Below, one piece after another: positions 10,349-60,195 of a stretch of 64,000 nucleotides of DNA. The notes under the pieces are model-generated. The model had not been told where the DNA came from. It saw nothing but the letters and a program-made list of their open reading frames with translations, and ran no database searches. A program made the position numbers and the translations under genes. Source of the DNA: Bacteroidia bacterium (GTDB lineage: Bacteria; Bacteroidota; Bacteroidia; B-17B0; Aurantibacillaceae); contig JALHRL010000003.1 in assembly GCA_022841465.1 (NCBI GenBank), positions 1-64,000 on the forward strand. Reading direction: 5' to 3'. The stretch's first letter is position 1. Each line of letters begins with the position of its first letter.

Positions 10349-10747
10349 ATGGCAAAAAAACCAGCAAAAAAAGCAGCGAAGAAAAAAGTTGTAAAAAAAG
10401 CAACTAAAAAAGCTGCACCTAAAAAAGCTGCAAAAAAAGCAGCAAAAAAAGTAGTTAAGAAAAAAGCAGCAAAACCTGCTAAGAAAAAAACTGCAAGAAA
10501 ACTTAACCCGGCATTAATGACGCCTTACACTCCAAGTGCGGCATTAGGAGAAGTAGTAGGTAACAAACCATTACCACGTAGCCAAGTTGTAAAAAAACTT
10601 TGGGTTTACATTAAAGCAAATAAATTGCAAGACACTAAAAACAAACGTATGATTAATGCTGATGATAAATTAAAAGCAATTTTCAACGGAAACAAACAAG
10701 TTTCTATGTTTGAAATGGCTAAATTTATTTCTAAGCACTTGAAATAA
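10349..10747 (+). CDS. SWIB/MDM2-domain protein with lysine/alanine-rich histone H1-like N-terminal tail
   Basis: KKAAKKA-rich first about 50 aa, then SWIB-like LGEVVGNKPLPRSQVVKKLWVYIKANKLQDTKNKRMINADDKLKAIF. Confidence 0.9.
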   Translation: MAKKPAKKAAKKKVVKKATKKAAPKKAAKKAAKKVVKKKAAKPAKKKTARKLNPALMTPYTPSAALGEVVGNKPLPRSQVVKKLWVYIKANKLQDTKNKRMINADDKLKAIFNGNKQVSMFEMAKFISKHLK

Positions 10748-54288: not shown

Positions 54289-54372
54289 TAAATGAAGGGT
54301 GTTTGTTAAAACAAATATGAGTATGTATTTTTTGATATGTAAATTTAATTAAGTTTTAGGCCTATTACCAAA

Positions 54373-54469
54373 ACGTCATCTATCCCGACGGGATCTCCCT
54401 CCTACGATAAATGTAGGAGTTTAATCCATCTGCATTATAGGCGTATGCCTATGATGCAGACGTCATCTA
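54373..54469 (-). repeat. 87-bp insert plus 10-bp direct repeat (TAGATGACGT) at the 3' end of SpoIIE gene 1
   Basis: ACGTCATCTA (plus) at 54373-54382 and 54460-54469; downstream copy reads IDDVLVIGLKLN*. Confidence 0.7.
54428..54461. repeat. Near-perfect palindrome spanning the last codons and stop of SpoIIE gene 1
   Basis: ATCTGCATTATAGGC-gtat-GCCTATGATGCAGAC. Confidence 0.85.
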
Positions 54470-56288
54470 CCTGTTCTAAATCACCTTTCCAAATTTCGAA
54501 TTCCTTTTTTAATAATTCACCTTGTGTAGCAAGTGAATTTGCATTAATATTCATTAAAAACTGGTTTAATTGTTTATACATGTATTTCTTTCCCTTTGGC
54601 CCTCCAAACTGATCTGCAAAACCATCGGTATACAAATACAAGGTATCTTTTTTATCCATATTTAATTTATACAATTGAAACGAATCTAATTTTTCTGCTT
54701 GCCCTACCGGCATTTTATCAAATTCCAATTCAGCAAAATTGTTTCCGCTCACTAAAATTGGCGAATTGTTTGCCGCTGCATATACTATTTCATTTGTTAA
54801 TTGATTAATGCAAACCAAAATGCCATCAAATCCATCTTTTTGTCCTTCTTTGCTTATATTATCTATTAATCTTTGTCTAACAAAATTAAAAACCTCGTTG
54901 GGCTTTACTATACCTTTTTCGTTTATAGCTTCGTTTAAAAATGTAATATTCAGTAAACTCATAAATGCTCCGGGCACACCATGCCCGGTACTATCACAAA
55001 CAGCAAAATAAAATAAATTATTTTTTTTAGTGGCCCAGTAAAAATCGCCACTAACAATATCTTTGGGATTAAAATAAACAAAATGCTGGGGTACATTTTT
55101 GCTTAAAAAATCTTGGTGAGCCAATAAAGTATATTGAATGCGTTTTGCATACGTTATACTATCTTGAATGTCTTTGTTTTTTTGTTCAATTTCTTCGTAG
55201 GCCTTTTTAAGTTCAATGTTTCTAAGCCTTTCAATTTCTTCTTCCTTTTCTTTTAATAATTTACTTTCTGATTGAGAAATTTTCGCTTCCTTTTCTTGCA
55301 GTACAAGCTTAACATTTAACTCCACCAATTTTTCATAAATTTCAATGGTCTTTTCAAAGTTTTTTAATTCTTTAAAAATAATTACCTGTTGCTTGTATAT
55401 AAACGCTAAGCGATTTAAATGATTGGTTTCATTTGCGTATACAATAGCTTGTTCATAATAATCATTCGCCAGGTCAAAATCCTTATATGCTAAATATAAA
55501 TTGGCAATATCAATTAAACTACCCAATACAAAATGTTTTAGATTAGCTTTTTTTCGATAGTCAAGGGCTTCTAAAAAATGTTGTAAAGCAAGTTCTTTAT
55601 TTCCAAGTTTAGAATAAATTAAACCTATATCATTTAACGCTCTGCTAATACCAATAGCATTGTTCGCTTTTTTTAATATTTCTAAACTTTTAAGTGATAA
55701 ATCTAAGGCTTCGTTTAATTTCCCCTGATCGGAATATATATTTGCTAAGGATGTAAATAACCTGCCACTCCAACTACTATAATTTGTTTCAACTTCAATT
55801 CCTTTTTTGTAATAGAAAGTTGCTTGATCAAACTTATTTAAATCTTTGTAAATCGTTCCAATAACGTAGTATGCCATTGGAATATCATCATCATTGGGGT
55901 TTTTATCATAAAATTCCATCCCCTTTAATCCATCATATAGAGCTGTTTCCGGGGCACCGGTTGAATTAACCATAATGGCCTTGGTTAATAATGTATTGGA
56001 AACCCACTTTTCATCATTAAGTTCATCAAACAAAGTTTTTGCCTTACTCATTAATTCTAAGGCCAATTCAATATTATTCTGAAGAATAAAGGCTCCCATT
56101 CCTTTATTTAATATGCCTCGTGCAACACCAAATTTATAGCCAATTGCTTCTGCTTTTTCAATTAACCCAACCATTAATGCTTCGGGATTATAATCAGGGG
56201 TTGGAGAATTACGATAATTCCAAATAAGCTCATTTACAGAATCTACTTCCTGTTTAATTTGCTCAATTTCAGAATTGGAATAGCTCAT
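54435..56288 (-). CDS. TPR-repeat SpoIIE-family PP2C phosphatase
   Basis: TPR repeats then PKDIVSGDFYWATKKNNLFYFAVCDSTGHGVPGAFMS...TDGFADQFGGPKGKKYMYKQLNQFL. Confidence 0.93.
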   Translation of the reverse strand: MSYSNSEIEQIKQEVDSVNELIWNYRNSPTPDYNPEALMVGLIEKAEAIGYKFGVARGILNKGMGAFILQNNIELALELMSKAKTLFDELNDEKWVSNTLLTKAIMVNSTGAPETALYDGLKGMEFYDKNPNDDDIPMAYYVIGTIYKDLNKFDQATFYYKKGIEVETNYSSWSGRLFTSLANIYSDQGKLNEALDLSLKSLEILKKANNAIGISRALNDIGLIYSKLGNKELALQHFLEALDYRKKANLKHFVLGSLIDIANLYLAYKDFDLANDYYEQAIVYANETNHLNRLAFIYKQQVIIFKELKNFEKTIEIYEKLVELNVKLVLQEKEAKISQSESKLLKEKEEEIERLRNIELKKAYEEIEQKNKDIQDSITYAKRIQYTLLAHQDFLSKNVPQHFVYFNPKDIVSGDFYWATKKNNLFYFAVCDSTGHGVPGAFMSLLNITFLNEAINEKGIVKPNEVFNFVRQRLIDNISKEGQKDGFDGILVCINQLTNEIVYAAANNSPILVSGNNFAELEFDKMPVGQAEKLDSFQLYKLNMDKKDTLYLYTDGFADQFGGPKGKKYMYKQLNQFLMNINANSLATQGELLKKEFEIWKGDLEQVDDVCIIGIRL

Positions 56289-56447
56289 AAAAAATATGAC
56301 ACGTAATTAACTCTTAAATATAACCAAGAAAAAAGAATTTACAAGGGAAAACAAGCAATTCTGTTGCTTTTTACTTATAATAAAGCTATTAAATTACTTT
56401 AGAGTGAATTTATTAGGGCGCCCATCGTTTAGTAAATGGATAATGTA

Positions 56448-56649
56448 GGGATTTCCTCCGTATGCATTATAGGCGAATGCCTATGTAAAAGAACTCATCT
56501 ATCCCGACGACTCATTCTTCGTGTCGGGATTTCCTCCGTATGCATTATAGGCGAATGCCTATGTAAAAGAACTCATCTATCCCGACGACTCATTCTTCGT
56601 GTCGGGATTTCCTCCGTATGCATTATAGGCGAATGCCTATAATGCATAC
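56448..56649. repeat. Tandem array (2.6 copies, 78-bp period) containing copies of the SpoIIE gene 2 3' end and a GTCGGGAT hairpin
   Basis: GGGATTTCCTCCGTATGCATTATAGGCGAATGCCTAT... starts at 56448, 56526, 56604. Confidence 0.95.
56616..56649. repeat. Perfect 15-bp-stem palindrome spanning last codons and stop of SpoIIE gene 2
   Basis: GTATGCATTATAGGC-gaat-GCCTATAATGCATAC. Confidence 0.95.
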
Positions 56650-59600
56650 GTCGTCAACCTGTTCTAATTCACCACGCCAAATTTCAAAAGTAGTTTGAAG
56701 TTTCGTTCGTTGTTCTTCTAATGATAATGTGCTTAATTCTAACAACAATTGATTCAATTTTTTATACATAAACTTTTTCCCTTTGGGTCCTCCAAACTGG
56801 TCGGCGTAACCATCGGTATATAAATAAAGAATATCGTTTGTTTTAAATTCAATTGTAAACAAATTAAAAGGCAATTTCTTCTCGCCCATACCCACCGGCA
56901 TCCTGTCTTTGTTTTGCTCTATTATTACAAAATCTCTAACTAACAAAGGTTCGTTATTGGCAGCAGCATATGTTATTTTGTTTTCTGAATAATCTATACA
57001 AATTAAAATTCCGTCAAATCCATCTTTTTGTCCTTCTTTACTAATGTTTTCTATTAACCGTTCTCTTACATAATCAAAAACTTCATTTGGCTTTTCAATG
57101 TTTTTTTCTTTAATAGCTTCGTTTAAGAAACCAATACTTAACAAACTCATAAAAGCTCCGGGCACGCCGTGTCCTGTACTGTCGCAAACGGCCAAATAAA
57201 ATTTATTATTAATTGTAGTTGACCAATAAAAATCGCCGCTAACGATATCTTTCGGGTTAAAAAATATAAAATGATGTGGAATATATTTTCTTAAAAAATC
57301 ATCATGAGACAATAATGCATACTGAATTCGTTTTGCATAATTAATACTATCTACAATTTCTTTTTGTTTTTCTTCTATTAATGTTTTTTGGTTGTTTATT
57401 TCCTGTGTTCGTTCTGTTACTGTTTTTTCTAAAATAACTTGTCTCTCTAATAACTGCTTGTTTCTTAGTTTAAAAATGTAAACAATAAGCCCAATAATAG
57501 AAGTTAAAGTAAGAATTCTAAACCACCAGGTGGCCCAAAAAGGAGGTTTAACAATAAAACGGTAGGTAAAACTTTCTCCCCAATCTAGTCCTTCTAACTT
57601 TGCTTGTGCTGTAAATTCATATTTACCAGGGCTTAAATTAGCGTATTTGACTTCGGGTAATTTTCCTACTATCCAATTATCATCAAATCCTTCTAATTTG
57701 TATCGATAATTTAATTTTTGAGTTACTTGACCATCACATCCATAAAAATAAAAAGTAATGGTATTTCTATCATAGGGTAATTGCAAATTTAAAGGGTAAT
57801 TAAAAAACGGAGCAACACCGGTGTAATTAACATCATTAAAACTAATTGTACTATCTGAATTATAAAACGTTAATCCTTTTGCAACAGAATCTAGGAGCGA
57901 ATGAAAACTAAAATGTTCATCCATTAAACTAATATGTGATAAAAATGTTCTAGGCGACTTTTTTGAGACATTAAATTCATTCAGGTTTAAATAAATTGCC
58001 CCTTTATTAGTACCCCACCATAAAATATTTTTTAATTTATCATAAGCTACAGCCCCCGATCTAAATGAATTTGTTTTTAATCCATCTTGTAAGTTATAAT
58101 TTTCAATCAAATATCCTTTCGGTTTAGTTTTACTAGGTATTAAGCAATTCAATCCTTTAAAAGTTCCGGCCCAAATGCGCTTATTGTTATCTTCAACAAG
58201 ATTTAAAATAACATTAGAACTTAAGCCATCTTTCACATCCATTAAGGTAAATTCTTTTCCGTTGTAAATGGCTAATCCTTTATTTGTTCCTATCCAGATT
58301 TTATTTTCTGAATCAACAAAAACAGAATGAACTACGTTTGAAGGCAATCCATTAGATGTAGTAAAATGTGTGATTTTATTTTCAGAAATTTTACTTATAC
58401 CATTTCCGTTATATGCCAGCCAAATATCATTGCTATTATCAACAGCAATGCAAGAAACATTGTTTGAACTTAAACCATTTTTTACAAAGTATTTTTCAAA
58501 ATAATTGTAACCATACTTTGTTAATCCATTTCCATTAAAATCGGCTAGCCAAACGTTTTTGTTTAAATCCATTTTACCGGAAGCAACAAATCTATTCTCA
58601 AAAGATTTAATAATTGACAGGTGTAAAAGAGAATCGTAACTTACAGAATCGGATGGTGAAACTTTTAGCATTTCAAAGCCATGCATGTGTGTGCCAACAA
58701 ATAAATTACCAATACTATCTTCTTGCATGGAAAGAATTATCTTCCAGTCAAGGCCGTTTCCACTTACAATTTGTTTAATTTTTTTTCCATTAAACACATG
58801 TATGCCCCCACCCCAACTTCCAAATAATGTTTCTCCTTTTTTGTTAACGTAAATACTTTGTATTGGTTTATCTGATAAGCCATCAAGTGAAGACAATAAT
58901 TTAAAACTACCCGGAACAATTTTATTTAAGCCACCGTCTACGGTAGCAACCCAAACATTGCCTGCACGATCTTCAATAATATCTGAAATTTTATTACTGG
59001 TTAAACCTTGTTTTGTGGTGTATAATTTAAAACCATTATCTTCTAACTTTGCAATGCCACCTTCACCAGTGCCAATCCAATAACTATTTTTACTATCTCC
59101 TAAAATTGCAGAAATTTGAAAATAAGGAAAACCTGTATTGGGTTTATAGCGTATAGATTTATCGTTTTGTAACTTAACAAAACCTCCGCTGTATGTACCC
59201 AATAATAAGTTGTTGTTTTTATCATTATAAATATTGGTAACCAAACCCGAACCAAATTGCAGCCAATCTTGCCAATGGTAACGGTGAATAATGGTATCAT
59301 TTATTATTTTCGACATGTTTCTATCCCAGGTGCCAATAAAGATTTCATTTGCTTTGTTAGATCCTAAGCGGTATAAGTTTCCTAACTCTAAAGGAGAATC
59401 GCTTCCGTAAATAAAAAATTTCCCGTCTTTTAATTTTACCAAACCGGTTTCCTGACAAATTAACCACAAACAGTTTTGTTTATCAAAATGAATGTCTAAA
59501 ATAGAATTTCCGGGTAAACCACTTTCGGTTGTGTAAACTAAAAAACGTTTTCCATCATAATTCCATAAACCATTTGTGGTAGACATCCATATACTGCTAT

Positions 59601-60195
59601 CTTTTGGATCGAGTAATAGTTTATTTGGCATTCCGGTAATTCCATTACGTGCGCTATAGTTATAAATATTATATCCATCGTAGCGTGTTAAGCCTGTTGA
59701 AGTTCCAATCCATAAAAAGCCTTTATTATCTTCTAATAAACAGTTAACTTGTGAAGAGGGTAAACCTTGTTCTTCTCCCAAATAAGTTATATTTTCGTTA
59801 GCAATACCGGTAGAGCGCAAATCACCTGCCTTAATTGGTTTTGGATGTTGCACCGGTGACAAAAATGGTTTTGCGATTACAACTTTTGGTGAATAGTAAA
59901 AACTATCGTATTTGCTTTTGTAACGTATTGTATCTATCACTCCAAAAGGTACTTTATCTTGATTGGCAAATGGCACTTCTTTATAGGTGAGTTTAAAACG
60001 CCAGCCTTTAGGAATTAAAAGGGTATCAAACTGAGTTGATGTTAAGTCAAACGCTTTATTTACAACAATAGAATCGGCATGTGTTTTTTTTGGAATAATA
60101 GATGAAATTAAAGGGATATTGCTCTGTTTACGAGTCTTTTCTTTACACGAAATAAAAGCAAACAATACAAATGTTATTAAAAACCTATAAAACAC
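56623..60195 (-). CDS. Two-component-regulator-propeller/Y_Y_Y sensor fused to SpoIIE PP2C phosphatase
   Basis: Lipoprotein-like N-terminus; repeated LLEDNKGFLWIGTSTGLTRYDG propeller units; LPYDRNTITFYFYGCD...YRYKLEGFDDNWIVG (Y_Y_Y); TM; SpoIIE domain. Confidence 0.93.
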   Translation of the reverse strand: MFYRFLITFVLFAFISCKEKTRKQSNIPLISSIIPKKTHADSIVVNKAFDLTSTQFDTLLIPKGWRFKLTYKEVPFANQDKVPFGVIDTIRYKSKYDSFYYSPKVVIAKPFLSPVQHPKPIKAGDLRSTGIANENITYLGEEQGLPSSQVNCLLEDNKGFLWIGTSTGLTRYDGYNIYNYSARNGITGMPNKLLLDPKDSSIWMSTTNGLWNYDGKRFLVYTTESGLPGNSILDIHFDKQNCLWLICQETGLVKLKDGKFFIYGSDSPLELGNLYRLGSNKANEIFIGTWDRNMSKIINDTIIHRYHWQDWLQFGSGLVTNIYNDKNNNLLLGTYSGGFVKLQNDKSIRYKPNTGFPYFQISAILGDSKNSYWIGTGEGGIAKLEDNGFKLYTTKQGLTSNKISDIIEDRAGNVWVATVDGGLNKIVPGSFKLLSSLDGLSDKPIQSIYVNKKGETLFGSWGGGIHVFNGKKIKQIVSGNGLDWKIILSMQEDSIGNLFVGTHMHGFEMLKVSPSDSVSYDSLLHLSIIKSFENRFVASGKMDLNKNVWLADFNGNGLTKYGYNYFEKYFVKNGLSSNNVSCIAVDNSNDIWLAYNGNGISKISENKITHFTTSNGLPSNVVHSVFVDSENKIWIGTNKGLAIYNGKEFTLMDVKDGLSSNVILNLVEDNNKRIWAGTFKGLNCLIPSKTKPKGYLIENYNLQDGLKTNSFRSGAVAYDKLKNILWWGTNKGAIYLNLNEFNVSKKSPRTFLSHISLMDEHFSFHSLLDSVAKGLTFYNSDSTISFNDVNYTGVAPFFNYPLNLQLPYDRNTITFYFYGCDGQVTQKLNYRYKLEGFDDNWIVGKLPEVKYANLSPGKYEFTAQAKLEGLDWGESFTYRFIVKPPFWATWWFRILTLTSIIGLIVYIFKLRNKQLLERQVILEKTVTERTQEINNQKTLIEEKQKEIVDSINYAKRIQYALLSHDDFLRKYIPHHFIFFNPKDIVSGDFYWSTTINNKFYLAVCDSTGHGVPGAFMSLLSIGFLNEAIKEKNIEKPNEVFDYVRERLIENISKEGQKDGFDGILICIDYSENKITYAAANNEPLLVRDFVIIEQNKDRMPVGMGEKKLPFNLFTIEFKTNDILYLYTDGYADQFGGPKGKKFMYKKLNQLLLELSTLSLEEQRTKLQTTFEIWRGELEQVDDVCIIGIRL

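Follow-up and report, generated by a model that had tools for sequence, protein, structure and literature searches.

The tandem array behind the second SpoIIE gene of the window (the whole stretch of 64,000 nucleotides analysed here) is best explained, with a probability of roughly 0.6, as a member of a family of gene-end cassettes that replace the C-terminal codons of SpoIIE genes and are copied among paralogues. Such a cassette would begin at the conserved Asp-Asp codons near the SpoIIE gene end and would bring replacement codons (DDVCIIGIRL or similar) together with a stop codon. By joining the gene in frame, an arriving cassette would leave a whole protein in which the last 8–10 residues are substituted; the former native end would be shifted 70–110 bp downstream and decay there, newer cassettes would stack on the gene-proximal side, and copies would pass between paralogues inside one genome.

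The window carries two SpoIIE genes arranged in tandem on the minus strand. According to the ORF list and Pfam, gene 1 (54435..56288) encodes a protein of 617 aa with TPR and SpoIIE domains that presently ends in DDVCIIGIRL*, and gene 2 (56623..60195) a protein of 1190 aa, composed of a propeller, Y_Y_Y and a SpoIIE phosphatase domain, with the C-terminus DDVCIIGIRL*. PF07228 (SpoIIE) scores of 61.4 bits for gene 1 and 77.9 bits for gene 2, at a cut-off of 25, place both in the SpoIIE/PP2C family. The array lies on the minus strand directly 3′ of the gene 2 stop codon. Tandem Repeats Finder reports it at 56444-56640 with a period of 78, 2.5 copies, a match of 99% and a score of 387, which confirms the 78-bp tandem array proposed in the sequence-only reading of this DNA, and a direct-repeat search finds three copies at a spacing of 78/78. 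Unit 1 (56578..56655, minus strand, 78 bp), established by sequence and repeat searches and with a fold z-score of −9.2, consists of the head GACGACGTATGCATTATAGGCATTCGCCTATAA, which equals the last 11 codons of gene 2, followed by the 3′ arm of hairpin 1, hairpin 2 and ATA. Hairpin 1 (56615..56650, minus strand), identified by inverted-repeat search, folding and covariation, has its 5′ arm and loop (ATTC) within coding sequence and the stop codon within its 3′ arm; the arms at 56615-56630 and 56635-56650 form a perfect stem, as had been claimed, of 16 bp with a 4-nt loop instead of the 15 bp given earlier. Hairpin 2 of unit 1 (56579..56608, minus strand; sequence and fold) reads ATCCCGACACGAAGAATGAGTCGTCGGGAT. 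Unit 2 (56500..56577, minus strand, 78 bp; sequence and repeat searches) opens with a displaced or degenerate gene end, GATGAGTTCTTTTACATAGGC (DEFFYIGIRL*), and continues with the hairpin 1 arm and hairpin 2 as in unit 1, and unit 3 (56448..56499, minus strand; sequence and motif count) is cut off within hairpin 2, where ..ATCCC is followed by TACATT. The degenerate end GATGAGTTCTTTTACATAGGCATTCGCCTATAA predicted for two further units occurs twice in the array, on the minus strand with starts at 56577 and 56499; the second hairpin, ATCCCGAC...GTCGGGAT, is genuine in units 1 and 2, but the last of the units said to contain it ends inside it. Exactly three copies of the 37-bp core ATAGGC...AAATCCC are present in the window, all within the gene 2 array, with 0 in shuffles, and the 231-nt array region folds at −83 kcal/mol (z = −7.0 vs shuffles).

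Apart from their first 15 bases (GACGACGTATGCATT vs GATGAGTTCTTTTAC), units 1 and 2 are the same, with identity starting at ATAGGC and running to the unit's end, so that the duplicated block spans from inside hairpin 1 to inside the second gene end. The simplest history of the window array is one cassette insertion with tandem duplication afterwards: a cassette would first have landed ahead of the older end (GATGAGTTCTTTTACATAGGC..), and the block from ATAGGC through hairpin 2 to GATGAGTTCTTTTAC would then have been duplicated in tandem via the common ATAGGC to give the 78-bp array. The earlier description of the array was accurate in almost all details, and its claim of a repeated gene end holds in that the units contain gene-end sequence and two hairpins and are not simple satellite DNA; the array is not, however, merely gene 2's own end amplified. 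Every unit does keep phase, as stated there, in the arithmetic sense (78 = 26 codons); since the added units come after the stop codon, this is without coding significance. The window genome is a draft of 125 contigs, and the array copy number of 2.5 could be wrong; an artefact of assembly is unlikely to account for the array entirely, because a like architecture is seen in other, separately assembled genomes. Elsewhere in the window, a Lys/Ala-rich tandem repeat (AAAAAAGCAGCA units) at 10352-10489 is likely the tail of a histone H1-like protein.

When the array was used as a query against the whole window genome (G000; 3.77 Mb, 125 contigs), 12 matches were obtained, and all of them are SpoIIE gene 3′ ends. 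SpoIIE-domain genes of this genome number 43 by PF07228 search, and reading of all 43 3′ ends identified ten cassette carriers, one of them decayed, with cassettes of 70–110 bp at the same codon; the other 33 genes have ordinary AT-rich ends. The carriers include window gene 2 (with its array), window gene 1 and the genes at C18:70.7k, C18:68.5k, C12:68.2k and C8:102.0k; several units are found at C32:14.7k (three), C33:24.7k (three) and C19:73.8k (two), and the decayed carrier lies at C9:81.4k. The head pattern, with 0–2 mismatches allowed, occurs at 14 places in the genome, all within the ends of carrier SpoIIE loci, and exact copies of tail hairpins A and B, at 3 and 4 places, respectively, are likewise all SpoIIE ends. 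DNA search, head pattern and tail searches detected no cassette at non-SpoIIE sites of the window genome. The presence of 43 SpoIIE-domain genes in 3.8 Mb constitutes an unusually large expansion, often in tandem clusters such as the four genes at C19 66-74 kb. One cassette-free SpoIIE gene (L019, G000:C11:41.6k) is followed about 15–200 bp past its stop codon by other palindromic repeats, GTCACCCTGAGCTTGACTCAGGGT and CCACGCGAAAGGATTCGCGCGG.

Cassettes share a fixed order, consisting of GAYGAC, the codons for DDVCIIGIRL and stop, the 3′ arm of hairpin 1 and hairpin 2, and they end directly ahead of another GAYGAY. Hairpin 1 is formed by the coding strand of the last codons paired with DNA past the stop codon. 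Hairpin 2 occurs as family A (ATCCCGACATTTATCGTCGGGAT or ATCCCGACACGAAGAATGAGTCGTCGGGAT), family B (GAGACAACGCTTTGCGTTCGTCTCTAAT) and, downstream of window gene 1, family C (CTCCTACATTTATCGTAGGAG). Of the ten carriers, nine use GAC as their second Asp codon (9/10 vs 2/33 of the remaining SpoIIE genes; p = 9e-7), and all have CAGGT upstream of the cassette site (10/10 vs 8/33; p = 2e-5). Across 21 units, hairpin 1 covaries with the coding wobble bases: all four pairs (A-U, C-G, G-C and U-A) are present at the Val wobble base, and C-G and U-A at the Cys wobble base. Swapping the 3′ arms between these units changes the mean fold from −16.8 (own arm) to −12.1 kcal/mol (permutation p = 5e-5), and the same p value is obtained when the swap is restricted to the window genome. 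Either hairpin 1 is selected or it is remade by a palindrome-correcting replication process. Fold z-scores of most units range from −5 to −10, and the two-hairpin architecture outside the genus reaches −5.0 and −6.3. No Rfam match was found at the gathering threshold, the weak E-value matches being chance. Intrinsic terminators combine a GC-rich hairpin with a U-run that follows at once; a classical terminator is not indicated here because hairpin 2 is followed by ATAGATGAG, ATGGA, TCTAAT and similar bases and by no U-run.

The second cassette of the window (54381..54467, minus strand, 87 bp; genome DNA search, sequence and fold, z = −5.8) provides gene 1 with the head DDVCIIGIRL*, hairpin 1, the hairpin CTCCTACATTTATCGTAGGAG and a short GATCCCGTCGGGATA. 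Adjacent to it, at 54345..54380 on the minus strand, lies the displaced native end of gene 1, GATGACGTTTTGGTAATAGGCCTAAAACTTAATTAA = DDVLVIGLKLN*, assigned from its sequence and from the ends of several closest orthologues. Among the orthologues used, which are 50–67% identical and hence moderately distant, gene 1 counterparts end in DDVLLVGIRI*, DDILIIGIKL*, DDVLIIGLRV* or DDVLLIGIKI*, with Leu where the displaced end has Leu; others (in G061 and G034) carry Cys (DDVCMIGIRI*, DDVCIIGIKI*). The carrier at C12 presently ends in DDVCIIGIRL*, with DEVLVIGIKV* displaced behind the cassette. Three of its four closest orthologues in the genus (61–67% identity) are cassette-free and end in DDVLVIGIRV*, DDVLVIGIKV* and DDILVIGIKI*, thereby matching the displaced end and not the present one; the fourth (G061, 62%) ends in DDVCVIGIRI*, and Cys/Leu at the fourth residue switches in cassette-free genes too. 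Since several orthologue ends match the displaced end and lack the cassette, the best reading is that the cassette inserted here, bringing a new end with it and moving the old one downstream. That the displaced end is the tail of a deleted downstream paralogue is unlikely for C12, where it matches orthologues of the same gene. A SpoIIE-end score built from 30 cassette-free SpoIIE ends and applied to the 315 bp after the stop codon places a second SpoIIE-like end at no less than the 99.9th percentile of shuffles in 8/10 carriers vs 0/30 others (Mann-Whitney p = 3e-6). At C8, G003 C47 and L109, the first and second ends are more alike than to other loci, which fits local duplication. The gene 2 orthologue in G033 (55% identity over 1190 aa) ends in DDVCIIGIGL* and has no array; tandem repeats of 83-97 bp (GAGGCAGAAACCGCAAAGAGGCAAAG type) lie 3′ of the cassette-free gene 2 orthologue at L211 (G033:C5).

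The clearest case of copying between paralogues involves C33 and C19, which share 152 bp (a B unit and an A unit; TTAGAACAGGTCGATGACG to GGGATGGA) at 97% identity. Identity has sharp edges: before the end the two genes are about 60% identical in DNA, and past the block they are unrelated. The two-unit block was copied from one locus to the other or from a common source. The C33 locus as a whole has mixed tails of B, A and a third kind. At C32 (73-bp units) and at L118 (83-bp units), local tandem duplication parallels that of gene 2. G029 and G033 likewise have family B on other SpoIIE genes; a tail B match in G031, away from any SpoIIE end and devoid of the gene-end head, looks like chance. 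In G021, a 41-bp insert with CCTGAG..GTCGAAGG lies between two identical 30-bp gene-end copies, and its tail family recurs in G026, in L109 and, within a Vicingaceae genome (L101), on two SpoIIE genes. A like architecture with different tails is found in G003, G022, L105 and L118; cassettes of this kind that differ in their tails are present in several sister species and also beyond them, among more distant Bacteroidota. Within the class, just 1 of 395 genomes shows the strict tandem-end pattern, which must therefore be rare or decay rapidly. Plasmids, phages and viral contigs gave no match to the cassette, and a literature search found no published description of the cassette arrangement at SpoIIE genes. 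In L097 (2090-2240, contig of G003:C56), a short-chain dehydrogenase-like gene has its 5′ end (TATGAATTTAGATCTTAAAAATAA) in two copies, which lie 108 bp apart on either side of an insert that bears a palindrome; gene starts may thus be further sites at which hairpin inserts come to be surrounded by long direct duplications.

The odds that short-homology recombination between paralogue ends is the vehicle are put a little below even, and it is favoured over a dedicated transposase. Recombination or gene conversion would proceed via the short homology of all SpoIIE ends (CAGGTNGAYGAYGT..ATAGGC), begun by palindromic REP-like inserts. With one locus in the end-hairpin-end form, a broken recipient end could enter it by strand invasion and acquire a copy of the hairpin-end block, which would produce the observed junctions. 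A homology-guided vehicle would account for the confinement of cassettes to SpoIIE ends, as the 43 paralogues have a common ending of 20–30 bp. Homologies of about 20–30 bp would nevertheless be short for RecA recombination; the rarity of the pattern (1/395), the moderate identity of the orthologues, the Cys/Leu switching in cassette-free genes and the lack of an enzyme tied to cassette movement also count against the cassette explanation. The principal competitor, which we regard as a genuine though minority possibility, is a dedicated mobile element, i.e., a non-autonomous REP/MITE-like palindrome moved by a trans-acting hairpin-recognising enzyme (e.g., a Y1/HUH transposase) into a target between CAGGTN and GAYGAYGT, with gene-end mimicry keeping the host gene alive. 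The presence of two hairpins in each unit, reminiscent of BIME-like elements, the sharp left edge at GAYGAC, the association with CAGGT and the occurrence of related tail families B and D on different SpoIIE genes of several species would all suit such an element, and there is precedent in the reported capture of rayt gene 3′ ends together with the downstream REP into BIMEs (PMC2817692). Against it stand the restriction of cassettes to SpoIIE genes in the window genome, the failure to match plasmids, phages and viral contigs, and the sole full-length Y1 transposase gene (G000:C5:24320), which is flanked by other palindromes; moreover, the gene end is doubled, whereas larger target duplications are not produced by IS200/IS605-type elements (PMC2817692). 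A further proposal, of a minimal mobile DNA whose survival depends on coding mimicry, entering the 3′ end of one protein family only, rewriting its last codons in frame with a hairpin that covaries with wobble positions, and using a protein motif as insertion site across Bacteroidota, is doubtful.

Selection might act on a conserved functional 3′ RNA structure of SpoIIE mRNAs, be it a terminator, an element that stabilises the mRNA or a regulatory RNA, and give rise to the repeats only incidentally; this would be compatible with cassette copying among paralogues but is unlikely to be what maintains the units. Hairpin 1 covaries strongly with the coding wobble bases and the fold z-scores are low, both of which are consistent with it, although template switching that corrects palindromes can also yield covariation; the structure is absent from 33/43 SpoIIE genes, varies in sequence and spacing, and lacks both a U-run and an Rfam match. 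A purely local origin, in which a gene end with its own terminator-like hairpin is tandemly duplicated by slippage without transfer between loci, is improbable as a general account. It draws on the clear tandem duplications in gene 2, C32 and L118 and on the alike ends at C8 and L109, and may hold for single loci, but is contradicted by the near-identical cassettes on the diverged paralogues C33 and C19, by the differing tails inside the C33 locus and by displaced ends that are unlike the first end yet like orthologues. Satellite or simple slippage as the only cause is ruled out by the sharp-edged, paralogue-shared cassettes and the mixed tails in one locus. Very improbable is off-target activity of a CRISPR-type integrase (Cas1-Cas2), which duplicates a repeat of about 30 bp and adds new units at one end: the identical 30-bp direct repeat flanking the 41-bp insert in G021 and the 70–110 bp units, the newest adjoining the gene, recall its products, but the inserts, being recurrent hairpins, are unlike random prespacers, and the insert starts are complementary to the target.

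If gene-end cassettes copied among paralogues are the right explanation, the C-termini of a large phosphatase family would be repeatedly overwritten by a travelling cassette of about ten codons plus stop, the old ends would be readable as fossils, and an ordered insertion series would be preserved within a gene family. Selfish or recombining DNA would then be landing at a protein motif, and a hairpin would evolve together with synonymous codon positions. It would also be a warning that conserved C-terminal motifs in expanded families may spread via DNA transfer, besides protein selection.

REPs are short palindromic hairpin repeats (PMC3733652). Like REP/BIME and RAYT-linked REPtrons (PMC3733652, PMC2817692), the cassettes are short paired hairpin repeats directly past stop codons; in contrast to them, they are confined to one gene family, bring in-frame replacement codons and a stop codon, are low in copy and have neither a consistent GTAG/CGTC tag nor a matching RAYT. 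REPs bear a GTAG (or GGAG)/CGTC tag at one palindrome end, whereas in the cassettes GGAG is present in family A only and absent from B, and CGTC is found only inside hairpin 2 or in Asp codons. REPs also exist in many copies among unrelated genes, whereas the genome matches of the cassettes are all at SpoIIE ends. REPs are further linked to a RAYT gene with copies of themselves at its sides, whereas the full-length Y1/RAYT-like transposase gene of the window genome (L175, G000:C5:24320-24664) has AATCCTTTCAGGATT / CCCCGAAGGGG-type palindromes just downstream; as these do not match the cassettes, the latter were rejected as REPs of this genome's RAYT. Rickettsia palindromic elements, fused in frame into many unrelated ORFs (reviewed in PMC10969869), resemble the cassettes in that a selfish-looking palindrome enters coding sequence in frame and the gene survives. 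The cassettes differ in being found only at the 3′ ends of one paralogous family, SpoIIE, where they substitute the C-terminus. MITEs are characterized by terminal inverted repeats and a target duplication of fixed length; the cassette hairpins are internal, and the flanking gene-end direct repeats vary from about 8 to 55 bp. Genomic islands that insert at the 3′ ends of tRNA or other genes rebuild those ends, so that, as with the cassettes, incoming DNA gives a new 3′ end and the old one is displaced downstream; cassette units, however, measure 70–110 bp and contain no genes and no integrase. Integron attC arrays likewise stack hairpin-bearing units with the newest nearest the receiving end, but the cassettes lack cassette ORFs, and an attC identity was dismissed as six cassettes contain no GTTRRRY or RYYYAAC core site. 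CRISPR arrays come with cas1/cas2 genes and have spacers of foreign origin; the "spacers" of the cassettes are recurrent hairpins. The cassettes are accordingly filed as a new variant within palindromic repeat biology, with which REPs, Rickettsia elements, MITEs, attC and 3′-end islands share single features while none, MITEs probably included, fits by its defining ones.
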